From positions 3,927,501 through 3,991,500 of the forward strand of contig NZ_CP060296.1 in assembly GCF_014303735.1 (NCBI RefSeq): a DNA stretch of 64,000 bases, in the 5' to 3' direction. The notes beneath the pieces were generated by a model. That model was not told the DNA's origin. It was given only the letters and a program-made list of their open reading frames with translations, and made no database searches. Source of the stretch: Variovorax sp. PAMC28562. GTDB lineage: Bacteria > Pseudomonadota > Gammaproteobacteria > Burkholderiales > Burkholderiaceae_C. A program made the translations under genes and the position numbers. Below, one piece after another: positions 1 through 8,067 of this stretch (position 1 is the first letter of the stretch; each line of letters opens with the position of its first letter).

Positions 1-438
1 AACTGGCCGCGCGCATTCGCCAACGTCGCCTCATGGTTGAGGCCAGGCGGCCGCTTCTTCATGCACGTGTTCGCGCACCGCGACGCGCCCTATCCCTTCG
101 TCGAGCGCGATGCCAGCGACTGGATGAGCAAGCACTTTTTCTCTGGCGGCATGATGCCCAGCGACGACCTTGCATTGCACTGCCAGGACGACTTGCGCCT
201 GCTGCGACGCTGGCGCTGGAACGGCACGCACTACCAGCGCACGTCGGCAGCGTGGCTGCGCAACATGGACGCTCACCGCAGCGAACTGATGCCGCTGTTC
301 GAGAGCACCTATGGTGGTGAAGCCAACGTGTGGTGGACGCGGTGGCGCCTGTTCTTCATGTCGGTCGAAGAGCTGTTCGGTTACGACGACGGCCAGCGGT
401 GGTGGGTCAGCCACTATCTGTTCGAGAAGCGCGCGTGA
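1..438 (+). CDS. Cfa-family SAM-dependent methyltransferase, C-terminal part (5' end outside the window)
   Basis: The frame is open from base 1 and stops at 436-438, leaving 145 residues of a C-terminal domain. The fragment begins inside the methyltransferase core: LRPGGRFFMHVFAHRD at about residues 13-28 matches the strand where E. coli Cfa carries His266 (LLHTIG), so this His appears to be kept as His22. GGMMPSDDL follows at about residue 50, where Cfa has its NGCLPS loop. The family uses S-adenosylmethionine to modify acyl chains of membrane phospholipids or small amines. The next gene starts inside its stop codon (GTGA at 435-438), so it heads an operon with DUF2878, DUF1295 and DUF6134 genes. 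It is a different subfamily from the complete Cfa-like gene at 6763-8067. The exact substrate cannot be read from this fragment. Confidence 0.85.
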   Translation, partial: NWPRAFANVASWLRPGGRFFMHVFAHRDAPYPFVERDASDWMSKHFFSGGMMPSDDLALHCQDDLRLLRRWRWNGTHYQRTSAAWLRNMDAHRSELMPLFESTYGGEANVWWTRWRLFFMSVEELFGYDDGQRWWVSHYLFEKRA

Positions 439-1022
439 CAGTCGCTCCCGCGCAACCAACGCGCCTCATGCAACTCGCGAACGTGGTGTTGGCGCAGATC
501 GGCTGGTTCGCGGCAGTACTCGGTGCCGCGCACGACCGGCCGCTCTGGGGATTGGCATGCGGGCTCGCGGTGATCGCATGGCACATCGCTGTTTCCTCGC
601 GACCTGCGCAGGAGGCTGCACTCGTTGCGCTGGTTTGCCTGATCGGCTTTGCATCGGAGACGATTCATGTCGCGCTGGGCAACATCGGCTATCCGTCGGG
701 ACAACCGTTGGCCCATCTGCCGCCCTATTGGATGATCGGTCTTTGGGGCTTGTTCGCGATCCAGTTGAACGTGACGTTGCGCTGGCTGCGCCCGCGTTTG
801 TGGTTGGCCGCCGTGCTCGGCGCTATTGCCGGCCCAGCCTCTTTTGCGTCGGGCGTGCGGCTTGGCGGCGCATCGTTCATTCATGCCACGCCGGCCGTGG
901 CCGAACTGGTCATTGGCTGGGCCTTGCTGATGCCACTGCTGGTCTGGTTGTCGATGCGATTCGATGGCGTGATCGTCGAGGCCGTCGTACACACCGATAT
1001 TCCGGAGACTGCTCATGCGTGA
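435..1022 (+). CDS. DUF2878 family integral membrane protein
   Basis: This 195-residue hydrophobic protein has several predicted membrane segments and conserved motifs such as GFASETIHVALG (about residue 75) and PPYWMIGLWGLF (about residue 97). I recognise it as the DUF2878 family, which has no established activity. I chose the GTG at 435 because it overlaps the stop of the upstream methyltransferase (GTGA), the usual form of translational coupling; the frame stays open further upstream but there it overlaps the methyltransferase gene. Its own end overlaps the next ATG by 8 nt. The strict coupling with Cfa-like and DUF1295 genes suggests a role in membrane-lipid modification, but that is inference from context only. 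Confidence 0.8.
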   Translation: MTVAPAQPTRLMQLANVVLAQIGWFAAVLGAAHDRPLWGLACGLAVIAWHIAVSSRPAQEAALVALVCLIGFASETIHVALGNIGYPSGQPLAHLPPYWMIGLWGLFAIQLNVTLRWLRPRLWLAAVLGAIAGPASFASGVRLGGASFIHATPAVAELVIGWALLMPLLVWLSMRFDGVIVEAVVHTDIPETAHA

Positions 1023-1842
1023 TGTGATTGCAATGTGGCCGATAGCCTTGACTGGATTGGGCGTTACCGCCGTGCTGGCAGTGTTGACCTGGCTGGTGAG
1101 CCTGTCGCGCACCGACGTGAGTCTGGTCGACCGCATGTGGCCGATCTTGATCGCAGGCGCGGGGTGCGTTTACTTCGTGCTGACGCCGGCGCCGGGCGTT
1201 CGAAGCGTTTGCATGATCGCCGTCGCGGTCGCGTGGGCATTGCGCCTCAGTCTGTTCATCACGGTACGCAATTGGGGGCACGGGGAAGATCGCCGCTATC
1301 AGGAAATCCGCGCCCGCAACCAGCCGAACTTCGGGTTCAAAAGCCTGTACCTCATCTTCGCTTTGCAGGTGGTGCTCGCGTGGATCGTCTCGGCTCCGTT
1401 GTTCGTGGGCGTAGTCGCGGGAACGACCGTTGGCGTTGTTGCATCGAACCCGCTCGGCTTGCTCGATGGGGCGGGCATGGCGATCGCGATCTTCGGCGTC
1501 GTTTTCGAGGCCATCGGTGACCAGCAGATGGCCACGTTCAAGTCCGACCCCGCCCACAAAGGACAGGTCATGGACCGCGGCCTGTGGCGCTATACCAGAC
1601 ACCCCAACTACTTCGGCGAGGCATGCGTCTGGTGGGGACTGTGGCTGATGGCGCTGTCCGCTGCAGGTTGGGGCGGCGCGTGGAGCGTCGTTTCGCCGCT
1701 GCTCATGACGGTACTGCTGCTCAAGGTGTCCGGCGTGACGCTGCTCGAAAAAGACATTGCTGAGCGCCGACCTAAGTACCGTGAATACGTCGAGCGGACC
1801 AACGCATTCGTGCCGGGCCCGCCGCGCAAAGGTACGCCATGA
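1015..1842 (+). CDS. DUF1295 family membrane protein (steroid 5-alpha-reductase/isoprenylcysteine methyltransferase-like fold)
   Basis: The product has 275 residues and about six or seven hydrophobic segments. The C-terminal signature GLWRYTRHPNYFGE (about residues 190-204) is the diagnostic motif of the DUF1295 branch of the 5-alpha-reductase/ICMT-like superfamily; members bind NADPH or SAM near this motif and act on membrane lipids. The ATG at 1015 overlaps the end of the DUF2878 gene by 8 nt, and the stop overlaps the next start (ATGA at 1839-1842). DUF1295 genes recur in sigma-E/ChrR regulons of proteobacteria, which agrees with the sigma/anti-sigma pair 1.3 kb downstream. Reaction and substrate are unknown; reduction of an unsaturated or furan-type acyl chain is only one possibility. 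Confidence 0.88.
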   Translation: MRDVIAMWPIALTGLGVTAVLAVLTWLVSLSRTDVSLVDRMWPILIAGAGCVYFVLTPAPGVRSVCMIAVAVAWALRLSLFITVRNWGHGEDRRYQEIRARNQPNFGFKSLYLIFALQVVLAWIVSAPLFVGVVAGTTVGVVASNPLGLLDGAGMAIAIFGVVFEAIGDQQMATFKSDPAHKGQVMDRGLWRYTRHPNYFGEACVWWGLWLMALSAAGWGGAWSVVSPLLMTVLLLKVSGVTLLEKDIAERRPKYREYVERTNAFVPGPPRKGTP

Positions 1843-2525
1843 AAGCGCTGCATGCTGCCCATGCCGGCAAAACGCTGGCGCTGTCGCTGTCGTTCGGACT
1901 GCTGGCAACGGCACCGAGCCATGCGGCGACAGCACCGACCGGCGAATGGAATTTCGTTGCCTCGCTGAACGACAAACCCATTGGGGAACACCGCTTCAAT
2001 GTGACCGGTTCCGGCGATGAGCGGCGAGTTGTCGGAGAGGCGAACTTCGACGTCAGATTCATCGGCATATCGGCTTACCGCTACCAGCACAAAGTCGTCG
2101 AGAAATGGCGCGGCAACTGCTTGACCGACCTCGTCTCGAAGACCGATGACGATGGCAAGATCATGCGCGTGCGCACTCAAACCGAAGGGGATGGCAGCTC
2201 TGGAAGCGAAGGGCTCATGGTCTTCGCGGATAACGCGACGGGCCTGCCCGTGCCGGGCTGCGTGATGAGCTTCGCCTATTGGAATCCGGCCCTGCAGACG
2301 CAGACACGACTGCTCAACGCGCAGACCGGCAAGCCTGAAAAAGTGCAGATCACACGCGTCGGTAGCGGCGAGATCGATGTGCGCGGGCAATCGACCATGG
2401 CGACGCGGTGGCGCATCACGGGCGCAACGAATCCGATCGACGTCTGGTACTCAGCCGCCGGCGACTGGATCGGTCTCGACTCGACTGTCGACGGCGGCCG
2501 CAAGCTCAGCTACCGGCTGAAGTAA
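1839..2525 (+). CDS. DUF6134 family secreted protein
   Basis: This 228-residue protein has an N-terminal signal sequence: a basic start, a hydrophobic core LALSLSFGLLATAPS, and a likely cleavage after SHA near residue 29. The mature part is predicted to be mostly beta-strand (GEWNFVASLNDKPIGEHRF at its start), as in lipocalin-like or DUF3108-like periplasmic proteins; I recognise it as DUF6134. Two cysteines (in RGNCL and PGCVM) could form a disulfide. The start ATG lies in ATGA with the stop of the DUF1295 gene, so it ends the four-gene operon. A periplasmic lipid-binding or lipid-transfer role fits the fold and the neighbours, but no function is established. Confidence 0.75.
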   Translation: MKALHAAHAGKTLALSLSFGLLATAPSHAATAPTGEWNFVASLNDKPIGEHRFNVTGSGDERRVVGEANFDVRFIGISAYRYQHKVVEKWRGNCLTDLVSKTDDDGKIMRVRTQTEGDGSSGSEGLMVFADNATGLPVPGCVMSFAYWNPALQTQTRLLNAQTGKPEKVQITRVGSGEIDVRGQSTMATRWRITGATNPIDVWYSAAGDWIGLDSTVDGGRKLSYRLK

Positions 2526-2551: not shown

Positions 2552-2579
2552 TGATCCATGGTCGGCCAGGCGTCGTAAC
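2552..2579 (+). promoter_or_regulatory. Predicted ECF sigma (RpoE/ChrR-type) promoter for the DUF2177 gene
   Basis: TGATCC at 2552-2557, then exactly 16 nt, then CGTAAC at 2574-2579. This is the same layout as the two sites between the sigma gene and the flavin oxidoreductase (4391-4418 and 4438-4465). The predicted transcription start, about 6-7 nt downstream, would leave a very short leader containing the ribosome-binding site gcaggag before the ATG at 2602. Confidence 0.7.
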
Positions 2580-2601
2580 GGTTGCAGGAGAACCACCCAC
2601 C

Positions 2602-3027
2602 ATGTCCATTCGAAACTTCCTCATCGCCTACCCCATCACGGCCATCATCTTTCTGGGGCTCGATGCCATCTGGCTCACCACCATGGCCGACCGGCTCTAT
2701 CGGCCGGCTCTCGGCAACATGATGCTGGAGCGCTTTTCACCGGCACCGGCGGTTGCGTTCTACCTGATCTACATCGTGGGTGTCGTGTTCTTCTGCGTGG
2801 CGCCATCGGTCAACGGCCGGGCTTGGCTGTCGGCGCTCGGCTCGGGCGCCTTGCTTGGGCTGGTGGCCTATGCGACCTACGACCTCACCAACCAGGCGAC
2901 GCTGAAAAACTGGCCCGTACAGGTCACCATGGCCGACCTGTGCTGGGGGACTTTCGTGACTGCCGTGTCGGCCGCAGCAGCCTGCTGGATTACCGGGTGG
3001 ATCAGCGATTTCATCGGCCGCCGCTGA
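2602..3027 (+). CDS. DUF2177 family membrane protein
   Basis: This 141-residue protein has four hydrophobic segments and the family signature LGLDAIWL near residue 17, followed by TYDLTNQATLKNWP near residue 93; this is the DUF2177 family. The ATG at 2602 follows a good ribosome-binding site (aggag, 2587-2591); an in-frame upstream ATG at 2551 would fall in the predicted promoter and is rejected. The family is a recurrent member of sigma-E/ChrR regulons in photosynthetic and other proteobacteria and is presumed to act in the membrane during oxidative stress. The gene stands alone between its own promoter-like site and a strong terminator. Confidence 0.88.
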   Translation: MSIRNFLIAYPITAIIFLGLDAIWLTTMADRLYRPALGNMMLERFSPAPAVAFYLIYIVGVVFFCVAPSVNGRAWLSALGSGALLGLVAYATYDLTNQATLKNWPVQVTMADLCWGTFVTAVSAAAACWITGWISDFIGRR

Positions 3028-3041
3028 TTTCGCTGGAGCTA

Positions 3042-3072
3042 AAAAAAACCGCTGCAACGCAGCGGTTTTTTT
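3042..3072. terminator. Bidirectional rho-independent terminator
   Basis: ACCGCTGC (3048-3055), loop AAC, GCAGCGGT (3059-3066), with a run of eight A before and seven T after. It serves the converging DUF2177 gene (+) and chrR (-); the chrR stop codon at 3071-3073 touches its edge. Confidence 0.9.
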
Positions 3073-3727
3073 ACATCCCGACCAGCCCGCCGAACCAGCG
3101 GGCGATCGCACCTTCGAACATCACCTTGCCGCGCACCGATGCCAGGCAGATGCACTCGCCATCGGCGAGAACCACCGGCTGATGAAGGATGGACCCATCG
3201 GCCTCGTCGAAATCACCCGGCCCGAACAGTGCCCGGCCATCATGGAAGGTGCCGTACAGCACCTGCGTCAATTCGACTTCACTGTGGCTGTGCATCGGCA
3301 GTTTTTTACCTGCGCCTATGCGCAACAAGAACACGTTGGCAGCCCGGTCGTAAGGCAGGGTCACGCGGCTCCAGCGCATGCCGGGGCCAAGCCAACGCCA
3401 GCGGGTGGTCGTGCAGCCGTGGAGTGACCGTGGCCACTTCATGCCAACTGGCAATTCGGCGCGAAGCCCCACCGCTGTCGGCGGTTGGAACGCCGGCGGC
3501 GATGGTGCGTCGATGGCAGCCAGGGCCTTCGTCAGCGCGTCGGTTGCAAGCACTGCAGGGTCAAGCGCCTCGAGCATGTCGCCGCCGATCGTTTCGAGCA
3601 CGCGAATGCGCTCCTGGCAGTGCACGCAGCCCTCGACGTGGCTGGACACGACCAGCGAAGGGCCGTTATCGAGATTGCCCGCCGCAAGGGCCAGCAAGAA
3701 GTCATCGTCCGGGTGGTGGTTCATCAT
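3071..3727 (-). CDS. chrR: ChrR-type zinc-binding anti-sigma factor with C-terminal cupin domain
   Basis: The 218-residue product has the two-domain layout of ChrR. The N-terminal zinc anti-sigma domain carries His4/His5 and the H-x3-C-x2-C motif at His30, Cys34, Cys37. The C-terminal cupin has HSHSEVE (His146, His148, Glu152) and a further His at about 182, matching the second zinc site of Rhodobacter sphaeroides ChrR (known there as His141, His143, Glu147, His177). ChrR holds the ECF sigma factor inactive until singlet oxygen or certain peroxides signal through the cupin domain. The start ATG overlaps the sigma stop codon (ATGA, 3727-3724), so the pair is translated together. All key ligands are visible, so it should be functional. 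Confidence 0.93.
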   Translation of the reverse strand: MMNHHPDDDFLLALAAGNLDNGPSLVVSSHVEGCVHCQERIRVLETIGGDMLEALDPAVLATDALTKALAAIDAPSPPAFQPPTAVGLRAELPVGMKWPRSLHGCTTTRWRWLGPGMRWSRVTLPYDRAANVFLLRIGAGKKLPMHSHSEVELTQVLYGTFHDGRALFGPGDFDEADGSILHQPVVLADGECICLASVRGKVMFEGAIARWFGGLVGM

Positions 3728-4383
3728 GGTTCGAGGCCGTCGAGCAATCGACGCAGGTGGTTGACGGCAAGCCGCACGCGCGACTTGACGGTGCCGAGTG
3801 GAATGCCCAGCTCGAGCGCAATGCGGGAATGAGGATGCTCTTCGTAGAACGACAGGCGCACGATTTGCGCCTGCTCTGGCGACAATTTGCACATCGCCTC
3901 GCGAACGCCCTTTTCGCGCCGGCCGGTCCGCACCTGGTCTTCAAGTGCGGGGGCCGTGTCGGGCATGTCGTCGGCTTCGGTGCCGTCGCCTTGCACCTCG
4001 CGCTGACCTTGGCGCCGGAAGTGGTCGACTCGCAGGTTGCGCGCTATGGTGAAGATCCAGGTCGACACCGCAGCCTGAGCCGGATTGAACATGGCGGCCT
4101 TGCGCCACACCGAAATCATGGTCTCCTGCACCAGCTCTTCTGCCAGACCCTCTGCCGTACCCGACCGCATCAGGAATGCCTTCACGCGCGGCGCGAAATG
4201 CTTGAACAGGGCAGCAAAAGCTTGCCGGTCGCCCGCGGCCGCTATGGCCTGCACCAGGGCGTTCAGTTCTTCGCTTGTCGGCATCGCTCCCCGTGGTTGT
4301 TTCAACGTAACGACCGACAGGCGGGCAGCCGTGGCTGGCTGGGCCAGCAAGGCGGCTGCCGTGGACTGTGGTGCGGGGCTCAT
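3724..4383 (-). CDS. rpoE: ECF RNA polymerase sigma factor, RpoE/ECF11-like
   Basis: A sigma-70 family protein with region 2 (AFAALFKHFAPRVKAFLMR; STWIFTIARNLRVDHFRR) and region 4 (LSPEQAQIVRLSFYEEH ... IPLGTVKSRVRLAV). The identity as the ChrR partner rests on similarity to Rhodobacter RpoE and on the overlapping chrR gene. The coordinates use the first ATG (219 aa). The predicted autoregulated promoter has its -10 only 7 nt before this ATG, so this start would be leaderless. The internal ATG at 4284 (residue 34), preceded by ggggag, gives a 186-residue protein, closer to the usual ECF size, and is a strong alternative. It should transcribe its own gene, the divergent flavin-oxidoreductase operon and the DUF2177 gene. 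Confidence 0.92.
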   Translation of the reverse strand: MSPAPQSTAAALLAQPATAARLSVVTLKQPRGAMPTSEELNALVQAIAAAGDRQAFAALFKHFAPRVKAFLMRSGTAEGLAEELVQETMISVWRKAAMFNPAQAAVSTWIFTIARNLRVDHFRRQGQREVQGDGTEADDMPDTAPALEDQVRTGRREKGVREAMCKLSPEQAQIVRLSFYEEHPHSRIALELGIPLGTVKSRVRLAVNHLRRLLDGLEP

Positions 4384-4390
4384 ATCACTC

Positions 4391-4418
4391 CATACGGCCC
4401 GGCCGGGGAATTAGATCA
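4391..4418 (-). promoter_or_regulatory. Predicted autoregulatory ECF sigma promoter of the sigma/chrR operon
   Basis: On the minus strand TGATCT (4418-4413), 16 nt, CGTATG (4396-4391). Same -35, spacing and -10 core as the sites at 4438-4465 and 2552-2579. Its -35 lies 19 nt from that of the divergent promoter, so the two polymerases would sit back to back. Confidence 0.7.
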
Positions 4419-4437
4419 CGTCGAATTACAAATGCCG

Positions 4438-4465
4438 TGATCCAAATGGCCAACTGCCGCGTATT
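4438..4465 (+). promoter_or_regulatory. Predicted ECF sigma promoter of the flavin oxidoreductase-DUF1365-Cfa operon
   Basis: TGATCC (4438-4443), 16 nt, CGTATT (4460-4465) on the plus strand. The predicted start site near 4472 leaves a leader of about 45 nt with the ribosome-binding site aggag at 4506-4510 before the ATG at 4518. Confidence 0.72.
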
Positions 4466-4517: not shown

Positions 4518-5939
4518 ATGCAAACGATGTCGATCGCCGCTGCGCCTACGATGCGCGCGCCGCCCCCCGCCCACACAGGTGCGGCACTCGATATCGCTGT
4601 CATCGGCAGTGGCATCTCGGGTCTGTCCGCGGCGTGGCTGCTGTCGCAAAAGCACCGCGTGACCGTCTTCGAGGCCGACACCCGGCCCGGCGGGCACAGC
4701 AATACGGTCGATGTGCAATCCACGCAAGGTGGTGCTGGCGCGATGATCGCTGTCGACACGGGATTCATCGTCTACAACGAGCCGGCCTACCCCAACCTGA
4801 CGGCGCTGTTCGCGCACCTCGGCGTCGAGACCAAACCCTCAGAGATGTCTTTCGCGGTGAGCCTGGACGACGGTGCGCTCGAGTACTCGGGCACCGGCCT
4901 GGGCGGCGTGTTCGCGCAAAAGCGCAACCTGGTCAGCCTGCGCTTCTGGTCGATGCTGCGCGACCTGGTGCGGTTCTATCGTCAGGCACCGGCGCACGCC
5001 GCCAGCGCCGGTTTGATGCCGCTCGACCAGTACCTCGACATGCAGGGCTACGGCAGGGCGTTTCGCGACGACCATCTGTATCCGATGGCGGCCGCTATCT
5101 GGTCGACGTCGGCCGCACGCATCGGCGAATATCCGACCGAGGCTTTCGTGCGGTTCTGCGAAAACCATCATCTGCTCAAGCTCACCAACCGGCCGGCCTG
5201 GCGCACCGTAGAAGGCGGCAGCCGCCGCTACGTCGAGCAGCTCACCAAGGGAATGGGCGATCGTTTGCGACTGGACAACGCCGCCATCGAAATCCGGCGC
5301 AGCGCCGAGGGCGTGCATGTCTGCACCGAAGCCGGCTGGGCGCCCGAGCGTTTCGACCAGGTCGTGATCGCCACGCACGCCGACCAGGCGCTGCGACTGC
5401 TGCCGGATGCGCACGCCGAGGAATCGCGTGTACTCGGTGCTTTCGGCTACAGCCGCAACCGCGCCGTGTTGCACAGCGACCCAGCCCTGATGCCGCAACG
5501 CCGCGCAGTGTGGTCGAGCTGGAATTACGCGGCCGATCGCACCCGCCCCGATGCCTTGTGCGTGACCTACTGGATGAACCGGCTGCAGGGGATCCCAGAC
5601 CACACGCCGCTGTTCCTGACACTCAATCCCATGCAAGAGCCCCGCCCCGAACACCTGATTCGCAGCGAGACCTACGAGCATCCGATGTTCGATGCCGCCG
5701 CGATCCGCGCGCAAGACCAGCTGTGGTCGCTTCAGGGTCACAACCGCACCTGGTTCTGCGGTGCGTACTTTGGCTCGGGGTTCCACGAAGACGGGCTGCA
5801 GTCCGGCTTGGCGGTGGCCGAGGCGATAGGCGGCGTGCGTCGGCCATGGACGGTCGCCAACGAGTCCGATCGCATCCGGCTGAAGACTGTGCTTCGACCT
5901 GCGATGGCCGAAGCAGCAACGGATGGTCAAACCGCATGA
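4518..5939 (+). CDS. FAD-dependent amine-oxidase-like oxidoreductase (fatty-acid modification type)
   Basis: This 473-residue flavoprotein has a Rossmann FAD site near the N-terminus (IAVIGSGISGLSAAWLL, about residues 26-42; acidic end FEADTRPGGH at about 57) and a C-terminal FAD motif (FCGAYFGSGFHEDGLQSG, about residue 414). It belongs to the NAD(P)-binding/flavin amine-oxidoreductase family found next to DUF1365 and Cfa-like genes. In R. sphaeroides, members of the sigma-E regulon of this kind take part in furan fatty acid synthesis on phospholipid chains. The ATG at 4518 is chosen for its ribosome-binding site; longer upstream starts would overlap the promoter. It begins a three-gene operon with 4-nt overlaps. 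Desaturation or oxidation of a methylated acyl chain is inferred. Confidence 0.88.
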   Translation: MQTMSIAAAPTMRAPPPAHTGAALDIAVIGSGISGLSAAWLLSQKHRVTVFEADTRPGGHSNTVDVQSTQGGAGAMIAVDTGFIVYNEPAYPNLTALFAHLGVETKPSEMSFAVSLDDGALEYSGTGLGGVFAQKRNLVSLRFWSMLRDLVRFYRQAPAHAASAGLMPLDQYLDMQGYGRAFRDDHLYPMAAAIWSTSAARIGEYPTEAFVRFCENHHLLKLTNRPAWRTVEGGSRRYVEQLTKGMGDRLRLDNAAIEIRRSAEGVHVCTEAGWAPERFDQVVIATHADQALRLLPDAHAEESRVLGAFGYSRNRAVLHSDPALMPQRRAVWSSWNYAADRTRPDALCVTYWMNRLQGIPDHTPLFLTLNPMQEPRPEHLIRSETYEHPMFDAAAIRAQDQLWSLQGHNRTWFCGAYFGSGFHEDGLQSGLAVAEAIGGVRRPWTVANESDRIRLKTVLRPAMAEAATDGQTA

Positions 5940-6766
5940 ACACGACACTGCAGCAGTCCGCGCTCTACCCTGGACGCGTCATGCACCAACGGATGCGACC
6001 CGCGCGCCACCGGCTTGCCTACCGTGTTTTCTCGCTGTTGATCGACCTCGACGAACTGCCGGAGCTGGCGCAACGGCTGCGCTTTTTTTCCCTGAATCGT
6101 TTCAACCTGTTCAGCCTGCATGAAGCCGACTATGGCGCGCGCAAGGGCAAGGACGGCAACGGCCACAACCTGCGCCAGCGGGTCGATGAGCAGTTGACCG
6201 CCGCGGGCCTGCTCGCGGGTGGCCCCATCCGCCTTCTGAGCATGCCGCGCATCCTCGGGTACGCCTTCAACCCGCTCAGCGTTTACTTCTGCCACCTACC
6301 CGATGGCGAGTTGCAAGCGATCCTCTACGAAGTGAACAACACGTTCGGCGAACGCCACAGTTACCTGATCGAGGTGGACAAGGACCAGCGCGCCCTGAGC
6401 ACCCAGGGCGTGCCGATCGACCAGCACTGCGCCAAGGAGTTTCACGTCTCGCCCTTCCTCGGCTTGCAGATGGACTACGGCTTTCGCGTGCAAGCGCCTC
6501 ACGTCGACCAGCCTGAAATGCGCCTTGACATCACCGCGAGCGATGCCGACGGCCCGATGTTGTTCGCACGGCTCGACGCACATCGCCGCGTACTGAACGA
6601 TGCCGCCTTGTTGCTGGCATTCTTTTCGCATCCCTTGCTCACGCTGAAGGTCGTGGGCGCCATCCACTGGGAGGCATTGCGCCTCTGGGTCAAGGGCGTG
6701 CGGTTGCACGTTCGGCCGCCCGCACCGACCCGGTCGGTGACCGTTACCAAAGCCGAAGAATCATGA
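5936..6766 (+). CDS. DUF1365 family protein
   Basis: The 276-residue product shows typical DUF1365 blocks: YPGRVMHQRMRPARHRLAYR at the N-terminus, RFNLFSLHEADYG (about 56), LLSMPRILGYAFNPLSVYFC (about 100) and EVNNTFGERHSYL (about 132). The family has no demonstrated chemistry of its own, but it is nearly always found between a flavin amine-oxidase-like gene and a Cfa-like gene, and in R. sphaeroides the equivalent cluster is needed for furan fatty acid formation. Start and stop overlap both neighbours by ATGA. The frame is open far upstream through the flavoprotein gene; that extension is a shadow and is not part of this gene. Confidence 0.9.
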   Translation: MNTTLQQSALYPGRVMHQRMRPARHRLAYRVFSLLIDLDELPELAQRLRFFSLNRFNLFSLHEADYGARKGKDGNGHNLRQRVDEQLTAAGLLAGGPIRLLSMPRILGYAFNPLSVYFCHLPDGELQAILYEVNNTFGERHSYLIEVDKDQRALSTQGVPIDQHCAKEFHVSPFLGLQMDYGFRVQAPHVDQPEMRLDITASDADGPMLFARLDAHRRVLNDAALLLAFFSHPLLTLKVVGAIHWEALRLWVKGVRLHVRPPAPTRSVTVTKAEES

Positions 6767-8067
6767 GCACACCTTCTTCTCCGCCAAACAGCCTCCAAAC
6801 CGAAGAACCGCGCAGCGGCGTTGCCTCTACCCTGTCGTCGCTCGGAGGCTGGCCGATGCGCCGGCTGCTGACACGACTGTTGCGCGACGTGCGCTGTGGC
6901 ACGCTCAGCGTCGAGCTACCCGGTGGCGAGCGCATCGAAGGCCGGGGAACTGTGCCGGGCCCGCAAGCTTCGATACGACTGCATCGCTGGCGCCCACTGG
7001 TGCGTTTGCTGCTGCAGGGCGACCTGGGCCTGGCCGAGTCGTACCGCGATGGCGACTGGTCGACCACAGACCTCACCGCGCTGCTCGAATTCGGGATTTG
7101 CAACGAGGCAAATTGGGGTCGTGCGCTCGAGGCCTCGCTGCCGGCGCGTTGGCTCACGCGGCTGTTTCACCTGATGCACGCCAACTCGCGGCGGGGCAGC
7201 CGCCAAAACATCTCGTTCCACTACGACATGGGCAACGACTTTTACGCCCAGTGGCTCGATCCTGACATGCTCTATTCCAGCGCCCTGTACGCCACGGGCG
7301 ACGAATCGCTCGAAGAAGCGCAGGCTGCAAAGCTGGACCACATCGTGTCGCTGCTCGACGTGCCCGACGATGGCAAGGTGCTCGAAATCGGCTGCGGTTG
7401 GGGCGCGCTGGCTTTGGCGCTGGCCCGCAAGCATCGCGCCAGCGTGACCGGCCTGACCCTTTCCACCGAGCAACTGGCCCACGCCAACAAACGAGTCGCC
7501 GACGAAGGTTTGACGCAGGCCGTCGACCTGCGGCTGCAGGACTATCGCGATGTGCAAGGCGAATACGACCGCATCGTTTCCATCGAGATGCTCGAAGCCG
7601 TTGGCGAGCGTTACTGGCCTGTTTACTTCGAGACGCTGCGCCAGCGACTACGGCCCGCCGGTTCGGCAGTGCTGCAGGTCATCACCATTGCCGACGACTA
7701 CTTCGATCACTACCGGCGCGGTACCGATTTCATCCAGCGTTTCATCTTTCCAGGCGGCATGTTGCCCTCGGTCAGTGCCATGAAGACACAGGCGGCGCAA
7801 GTCGGCATGCGGCTTGAAACAGCAGTGTCTTTCGGCGCCAGCTACGGCACCACGCTGGCGGAGTGGCGCACCCGGTTCCTTCGGGCGTGGCCGTCGATCG
7901 AGGCGCTGGGCTTCGACGCCTCGTTCAAGCGCCTCTGGGAGTACTACCTGTGCTACTGCGAAGCCGGATTTAGAACCGGCCGCGTGGACGTGGGCCTGTT
8001 CACCGTGGTGCATGCCGATCACGGCGGCCAAACTGGGCACACTGGCATAAGCGCCGCCGCAGCATAA
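6763..8067 (+). CDS. Cfa-like phospholipid acyl-chain methyltransferase
   Basis: A full-length Cfa-family enzyme (434 aa). Visible are HYDMGNDFYAQWLDP (about 154), the SAM-binding VLEIGCGWGALALA (about 206-219) and the C-terminal IFPGGMLPS region. Compared with E. coli Cfa from memory, the bicarbonate-coordinating Cys139 is Ser173 (MLYSSALY), His266 is Gln305 (VLQVITI), and only Glu239 is kept (Glu278 in IEMLEAVG). These changes suggest that it may methylate the cis double bond to a methyl-branched unsaturated chain, as proposed for UfaM of R. sphaeroides, rather than close a cyclopropane ring. That is inference. It ends the operon driven by the ECF promoter at 4438. Plain cyclopropane synthase remains possible. 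Confidence 0.88.
   Translation: MSTPSSPPNSLQTEEPRSGVASTLSSLGGWPMRRLLTRLLRDVRCGTLSVELPGGERIEGRGTVPGPQASIRLHRWRPLVRLLLQGDLGLAESYRDGDWSTTDLTALLEFGICNEANWGRALEASLPARWLTRLFHLMHANSRRGSRQNISFHYDMGNDFYAQWLDPDMLYSSALYATGDESLEEAQAAKLDHIVSLLDVPDDGKVLEIGCGWGALALALARKHRASVTGLTLSTEQLAHANKRVADEGLTQAVDLRLQDYRDVQGEYDRIVSIEMLEAVGERYWPVYFETLRQRLRPAGSAVLQVITIADDYFDHYRRGTDFIQRFIFPGGMLPSVSAMKTQAAQVGMRLETAVSFGASYGTTLAEWRTRFLRAWPSIEALGFDASFKRLWEYYLCYCEAGFRTGRVDVGLFTVVHADHGGQTGHTGISAAAA

Follow-up and report, generated by a model that had tools for sequence, protein, structure and literature searches.

What reads the promoters that surround a sigma factor gene in Variovorax sp. PAMC28562, and which genes do they serve? 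The question is raised by a 64,000-nucleotide stretch of contig NZ_CP060296.1 (positions 3,927,501 to 3,991,500 of the forward strand; the window), in which sites of the form TGATCY-N16-CGTA lie around a gene pair for an extracytoplasmic function (ECF) sigma factor and a ChrR-type zinc anti-sigma factor. Judged from sequence, these sites very likely act as promoters for the ECF11-type sigma factor encoded next to them, and the four linked units that they serve would encode products remodeling membrane acyl chains. The matching sites would very probably activate genes for membrane lipids in defense against oxygen damage.

The first-pass annotation had placed three such sites directly before the DUF2177 gene, the sigma-chrR operon, and the operon for a flavin oxidoreductase, a DUF1365 protein, and a Cfa protein (ufaD-ufaO-ufaM in Table 1), and had described them as sharing the -35 element, an exact 16-nt spacer, and the CGTA core. 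We recovered their positions, strands, and sequences in the letters of the window and the common spacer and core by exact pattern match, and the same gene positions are kept in relatives. The -35 elements agree in TGATC but are not identical (TGATCC, TGATCT, and TGATCC), position 6 varying by gene across relatives. The list of three was also incomplete, overlooking a fourth local site, AGATCC-N16-CGTAAC, at genome position 3926822 (= L008:8822), 679 bp before the first base of the window. The CMAS2 open reading frame (ORF) starts downstream of it, at L008:8871 (GTG) or 8895 (ATG). The head of the five-gene run thus has its own site, and therefore the one before DUF2177 would be an internal promoter. 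The sigma and ufaD promoters stand back to back, with their -35 elements 19 bp apart.

In 100 dinucleotide shuffles of the window, the exact motif occurred 0.11 times on average, and none of the shuffles reached the three matches observed. When one mismatch was allowed, seven sites were found against 3.87 expected, and 10 of 100 shuffles reached seven; therefore, the exact form alone is informative. A chance origin of the local sites was rejected by the shuffles, a reversed-pattern control, and the positional conservation among loci.

For this conservation, 65 loci (41 named, 23 others, and L008) were collapsed by near-identity to 55, one of which (L082) lacks the sigma gene; 260 nt upstream of each gene were searched, and loci with less than 250 nt of upstream sequence were excluded from the counts. 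The form NRATCY-N16-CGTA precedes sigma in 46 of 54 loci, CMAS2 in 36 of 38, and ufaD in 38 of 44, and is found less often before DUF2177 (11/42), DUF1295 (5/42), and DUF6134 (1/29). It is absent from all 154 upstream regions (260 nt) of the operon-internal genes ufaO, ufaM, chrR, and DUF2878. Under the strict form, NGATCY, the counts are 46 for sigma, 31 for CMAS2, 16 for ufaD, 11 for DUF2177, 3 for DUF1295, 1 for DUF6134, and 0 for the internal genes. Spacer lengths other than 16 (range 12–20) gave at most three hits per gene (ufaD, three at 17; chrR, three at 14), and the reversed pattern was found upstream of none of the same genes in the 55-locus set.

A wider sample was also compared. 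Among 398 genomes of Pseudomonadota, DUF2177 occurs in 64 and ChrR above the cut-off in 103, with both present in 34 (odds ratio 4.4, p 3e-7). This DUF2177 set comprises 64 genes besides that of the window, and genomes with a sub-cut-off ChrR (e.g. G432, 123 bits) were classed as being without it. Of the 34 DUF2177 genes from ChrR genomes, 11 have NRATCY-N16-CGTA in the 3 kb upstream (7 in the strict form), versus 0 of the 30 genes from the other genomes (p 0.0005). Control spacers near DUF2177 gave 2 and 0 hits (18 nt) and 0 and 1 hits (14 nt) in ChrR genomes and others, respectively.

The sigma-ChrR pair is an RpoE-ChrR system of known kind, its ECF11 assignment being drawn from the motif, the ChrR family, and the zinc ligands. 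Like σE-ChrR of Rhodobacter sphaeroides (ECF11), it combines a sigma factor with a zinc- and cupin-type ChrR (PMC6852236, PMC7380195). The best solved relative of the sigma factor is R. sphaeroides RpoE (2q1z_A, 6.1e-40), and its closest named relative stems from a Variovorax metagenome-assembled genome (MAG; 93% identity). In R. sphaeroides ChrR, the zinc ligands are His-6, His-31, Cys-35, and Cys-38 and His-141, His-143, Glu-147, and His-177 (PMC6852236). His-5, His-30, Cys-34, and Cys-37 of the window's ChrR, together with cupin residues His, His, Glu, and His, align with all eight. The stop codon of sigma and the start codon of chrR overlap (ATGA).

The motif itself equals the one published for this family, TGATCC-N16-CGTA, which is the chromatin immunoprecipitation sequencing (ChIP-Seq) consensus of PSPTO_1043 in Pseudomonas syringae (PMC5507510). 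The PSPTO_1043/1042 system shares with the one described here both this consensus and autoregulation, and the phrB-cfa operon of P. syringae likewise includes a flavin amine oxidase and an RSP_1090 homologue. Its phrB promoter is an aGATCC variant, 14-fold up on sigma overexpression (Table 3 of PMC5507510), and resembles the fourth, CMAS2 site. In P. syringae, unlike here, sigma and the cfa operon lie at separate loci, and 21 motif-bearing ChIP peaks are described at promoter-like places (PMC5507510). Shewanella oneidensis RpoE2-ChrR also uses TGATCC and CGTATT elements; transcription starts are mapped for rpoE2 and pgpD, and the regulon includes a cfa operon but differs in other predicted targets, among them glutathione peroxidase, a Lon-domain protein, and photolyases (PMC4336711). 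The core regulon of R. sphaeroides is given as about eight genes, including rpoE-chrR and furan-fatty-acid genes (PMC6852236, PMC7380195). In contrast to R. sphaeroides, with which proteins and regulon genes were compared, the ufa and CMAS2-DUF operons adjoin the sigma locus here; the Comamonadaceae sigma factor, furthermore, carries an N-terminal extension. The order UfaD-UfaO-UfaM, compared by family and gene order, recurs by locus tag in Rhodopseudomonas palustris RPA2571-2570-2569 (PMC7380195). The earlier proposal that this sigma factor reads the sites is thus supported at the level of sequence: the motif is that published for the family, gene positions and spacer are kept, and operon-internal genes lack it.

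By analogy with R. sphaeroides, ChrR would hold the sigma factor inactive, and oxidative stress at the membrane, for example from singlet oxygen, would make ChrR release it. The free sigma factor would then fire the promoter of its own sigma-chrR operon, the back-to-back ufaD-ufaO-ufaM promoter, the promoter of the CMAS2-DUF2878-DUF1295-DUF6134-DUF2177 operon just outside the window, and an internal booster promoter before DUF2177. The products would remodel membrane acyl chains, probably toward methylated or furan fatty acids. This would extend the σE-ChrR regulon to soil Comamonadaceae and tie the uncharacterised DUF2177, DUF2878, DUF1295, and DUF6134 families to the furan-fatty-acid response, giving them testable functions.

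How the sigma gene is started appears to be linked to its promoter. Counted from the first -35 base, ECF promoters usually start transcription ∼34–37 nt downstream. This is the distance at which each of the 47 related loci that have a sigma site carries an in-frame, open start codon (ATG in 45, GTG in 2), whereas the same spacing is found at 12 of 91 target genes (ufaD 6/38, CMAS2 3/36, DUF2177 0/11, DUF1295 2/5, DUF6134 1/1). The phylum sample provided 30 ChrR loci. A looser motif (15–17-nt spacer) was found in 29 of the 30, and 21 of these 29 fit the spacing. After removal of L270 as a repeat of genome G031, the strict motif was found in 21 of the 29 loci left (8 lack it), and 19 of the 21 fit, the exceptions being L271 and L272. 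The start codon falls at the expected transcription start, and therefore a leaderless sigma mRNA is predicted; from these spacings, transcription probably begins at the start codon itself.

Alternatively, the mRNA may not be leaderless, because the true start is an internal ATG at 4284 led by a Shine-Dalgarno sequence, or because transcription begins a few bases upstream and leaves a short leader. Several observations speak for this alternative. The gene caller chose the ATG at 4284, which has GGGGAG ahead of it. In this genome, GGAG stands 4 nt upstream of the ATG at 4383, and a Shine-Dalgarno-like stretch accompanies the early start in 5 of the 47 loci. Substitutions by codon position show a weak bias in the extension (175/146/228) compared with the body (564/446/1483; 32 overlapping pairs), and residues 1–31 of the sigma factor are disordered in the structural model (predicted local distance difference test, pLDDT, below 50), so that the model gives them no function. 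On the other side stand the constant position of the early in-frame start codon in both locus sets, even though the distance from site to sigma body varies from 173 to 208 nt, and a P-[WY]-L-S-I-V-T-like stretch that recurs in many of the N-terminal extensions. A start that is not leaderless therefore remains a serious contender, with a chance distinctly below even.

If the sigma mRNA is leaderless, only transcripts made by the sigma factor would be translated well from the early codon, and positive autoregulation would be locked in at both levels, transcription and translation. The early start would, in Comamonadaceae, add the LSIVT-bearing N-terminal extension, which the internally started short protein would lose. 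The spacing would then be a simple rule on how this class of sigma factors controls its own synthesis. The joint reading, in which a leaderless sigma mRNA in alpha- and betaproteobacterial systems, an autoregulatory lock, the Comamonadaceae extension, and a membrane module shared with algae (see below) all hold, is tentative and falls just short of an even chance. A limited literature search found leaderless and ChrR mentioned together only in a paper on fish larvae.

The -35 element before sigma has a further peculiarity. Its last base is T in 31 of 46 strict sigma sites versus 0 of 51 sites before ufaD, CMAS2, DUF1295, and DUF6134 (Fisher 2e-14, a value inflated by the shared ancestry of the loci); before DUF2177, it is T in 5 of 11. 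That the T-ending form tunes sigma autoregulation is a guess. A fixed gap between the back-to-back -35 elements was rejected, since 38 pairs show gaps of 7 to 47 bp. In two rearranged loci, L119 (a MAG) and L120 (Acidocella facilis), DUF2177-UfaM-UfaO and sigma-chrR-CMAS2-DUF1295 flank back-to-back ECF11-type sites. One MAG contig (JAFEEG010000018.1; L107 and L112) carries two sigma-chrR/lipid-gene clusters.

Not all observations agree with promoters read by the adjacent sigma factor. The strict -35 element is found at only 16 of 44 ufaD loci, and the DUF2177 site is present in 11 of 42; in the phylum sample, ChrR genomes hold 34 DUF2177 genes, and for 23 of these the 3 kb upstream are free of the motif. 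The spacer before sigma is 15 nt long in L094, and six distant sigma relatives (L116–L118, L121–L123) have no exact site before sigma; three Enterovibrio loci among such site-less relatives carry TGATCC with CGTT. Genome-wide, the exact motif also stays near background, at 4.4 matches per genome lacking ChrR.

The DUF2177 site in the window may be a chance match or a relic, with DUF2177 transcribed from the promoter before CMAS2: such sites are scarce in related loci, and its profile score (16.7) is below those of the divergent sites (25.2 and 25.9). However, the site retains the exact core and spacer, and three distant genomes in the phylum sample (G151, G245, and G354) likewise have a site 66–73 nt ahead of DUF2177. 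A chance match or relic is improbable, and an internal promoter is the preferred reading.

The first-pass annotation had proposed a motif search of the whole genome and a local regulon. The 4.69-Mb, one-contig genome holds seven exact TGATCY-N16-CGTA matches (reversed-pattern control, none). The three local sites do cluster, within 1.9 kb, but the remainder fell mostly inside ORFs: three of the other four matches lie in called ORFs, and for these a chance origin was retained over a role as regulon sites. The fourth, an exact TGATCC-N16-CGTA at genome position 2330891 (L012:3392), stands ∼56 nt before the gene for a 94-amino acid protein with a DUF3606 match and is a possible distant target; the homologues of this gene found elsewhere show no more than weak similarity (best 6.1e-9).

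In the genus sample (G000–G036), ChrR matches were found in 21 of 37 Variovorax genomes. Of the 37, 20 encode a close UfaO homologue (E 1e-60 or better), and every one of these has ChrR. Genome G014 has two ChrR copies (L079 and L080), 54–56% identical to that of the window, and no close UfaO. Exact motif matches average 7.0 in the 21 genomes with ChrR versus 4.4 in the 16 without (p 0.015). Because ChrR-less genomes hold many matches, genome-wide counting is a weak test of the regulon.

In relatives, the motif also precedes other genes, an indication that the regulon may reach beyond the locus. Among the matches listed for ChrR-bearing relatives, 20 distant ones were picked by eye: 8 are intergenic with a gene within 350 nt, 5 are intergenic without one, and 7 lie inside called ORFs. 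The genes after the eight, named from reading the sequences, are four msrP-like genes, two for alpha/beta-hydrolase-like lipoproteins, one lipocalin-like, and one DUF1295-like. We compared the msrP upstream region in 33 of the 37 genus genomes (G012, G018, G022, and G028 were excluded as absent or partial). GTAACC-N16-CGAA, the SigF motif of Caulobacter (PMC3511200), precedes msrP in 32 of the 33 (in this genome, the site region is at 2114745, L368). It is overlapped by an ECF11-like site in 7 of 21 ChrR genomes versus 0 of 12 others (p 0.03). The -35 element of this site, 16 nt before the overlapping CGTA, is TGATCC in four, GGATCC in one, and GAATCC in two genomes, including this one; at least 9 of the 12 genomes without ChrR have GAAACC at that position. 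On these small numbers from related genomes, it looks as if msrP gained a second sigma input by a few substitutions. The msrP gene of this genome was rejected as a target, having just the GAATCC variant, which scores 1.3 in the profile against 13.8 for the lowest training site. That another ECF sigma factor of overlapping specificity reads some of the sites, in addition to or in place of this one, is very improbable: ECF motifs do share elements, the CGTA of the ECF11-like msrP sites overlapping the SigF-type -35 element, and at least one more candidate ECF-like sigma factor is encoded nearby (ORF L008:5276-5872, minus strand), but the motif is the same as that published for this sigma family and, near DUF2177, is confined to ChrR genomes.

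The families of the locus recur in algae. In Chlamydomonas, 104 genes need SAK1 for induction by singlet oxygen, among them CFA1, CFA2, and DUF1365, DUF2177, and DUF1295 genes (Table 5 of PMC4067076). CMAS, DUF1365, DUF1295, and DUF2177 are thus four families common to the locus and the Chlamydomonas set, compared by family name only, and the Chlamydomonas regulator, SAK1, differs in being eukaryotic (PMC4067076). This overlap points to a common membrane-protection module. That CFA genes may be connected with furan fatty acids in Chlamydomonas has already been published (PMC8491031). A DUF1365 row appears in a further table (PMC11313482), and DUF2177 also adjoins heliorhodopsin genes (PMC11109279) and is present in a virus protein list (PMC6163359).

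Table 1. Promoter sites and genes of the sigma-chrR locus, in window coordinates
Feature	Position	Strand	Remarks
CMAS2, second CMAS-family methyltransferase (3' part)	1..438	+	PF02353; gene and promoter start before the window
DUF2878 protein	435..1022	+	PF11086 4.8e-35 for the longer frame 330-1022
DUF1295 protein	1015..1842	+	PF06966 4.4e-70
DUF6134 protein	1839..2525	+	PF19630 3.7e-43
Putative ECF11-type promoter TGATCC-N16-CGTAAC	2552..2579	+	Exact match; before DUF2177, internal to the CMAS2-DUF2878-DUF1295-DUF6134-DUF2177 operon
DUF2177 membrane protein	2602..3027	+	PF09945 2.6e-46
ChrR-type zinc anti-sigma factor	3071..3727	-	TIGR02451 181.2 bits (cut-off 124.5); Cupin_7; aligned with 2z2s_B
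ECF sigma factor	3724..4383	-	Sigma70_r2/r4; first base of its own promoter lies 35 nt ahead of the start codon
Putative ECF11-type promoter TGATCT-N16-CGTATG	4391..4418	-	Exact match; sigma-chrR operon (autoregulation)
Putative ECF11-type promoter TGATCC-N16-CGTATT	4438..4465	+	Exact match; before the ufaD-ufaO-ufaM operon
UfaD-like flavin amine-oxidase-family protein	4518..5939	+	PF01593 2.2e-21
UfaO-like DUF1365 protein	5936..6766	+	PF07103 3.3e-81
UfaM-like CMAS-family methyltransferase	6763..8067	+	PF02353 6.3e-81

One protein each of the UfaD, UfaO, and UfaM families is encoded in a single operon, the Ufa names being given by family match. The DUF2878 start at 435 was picked for its overlap with the CMAS2 stop codon. 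Between the converging DUF2177 and chrR genes, at 3043–3072, lies a perfect inverted repeat, AACCGCTGC-AAC-GCAGCGGTT, with runs of A and T on either side, which, judged by eye, looks like a two-way terminator.

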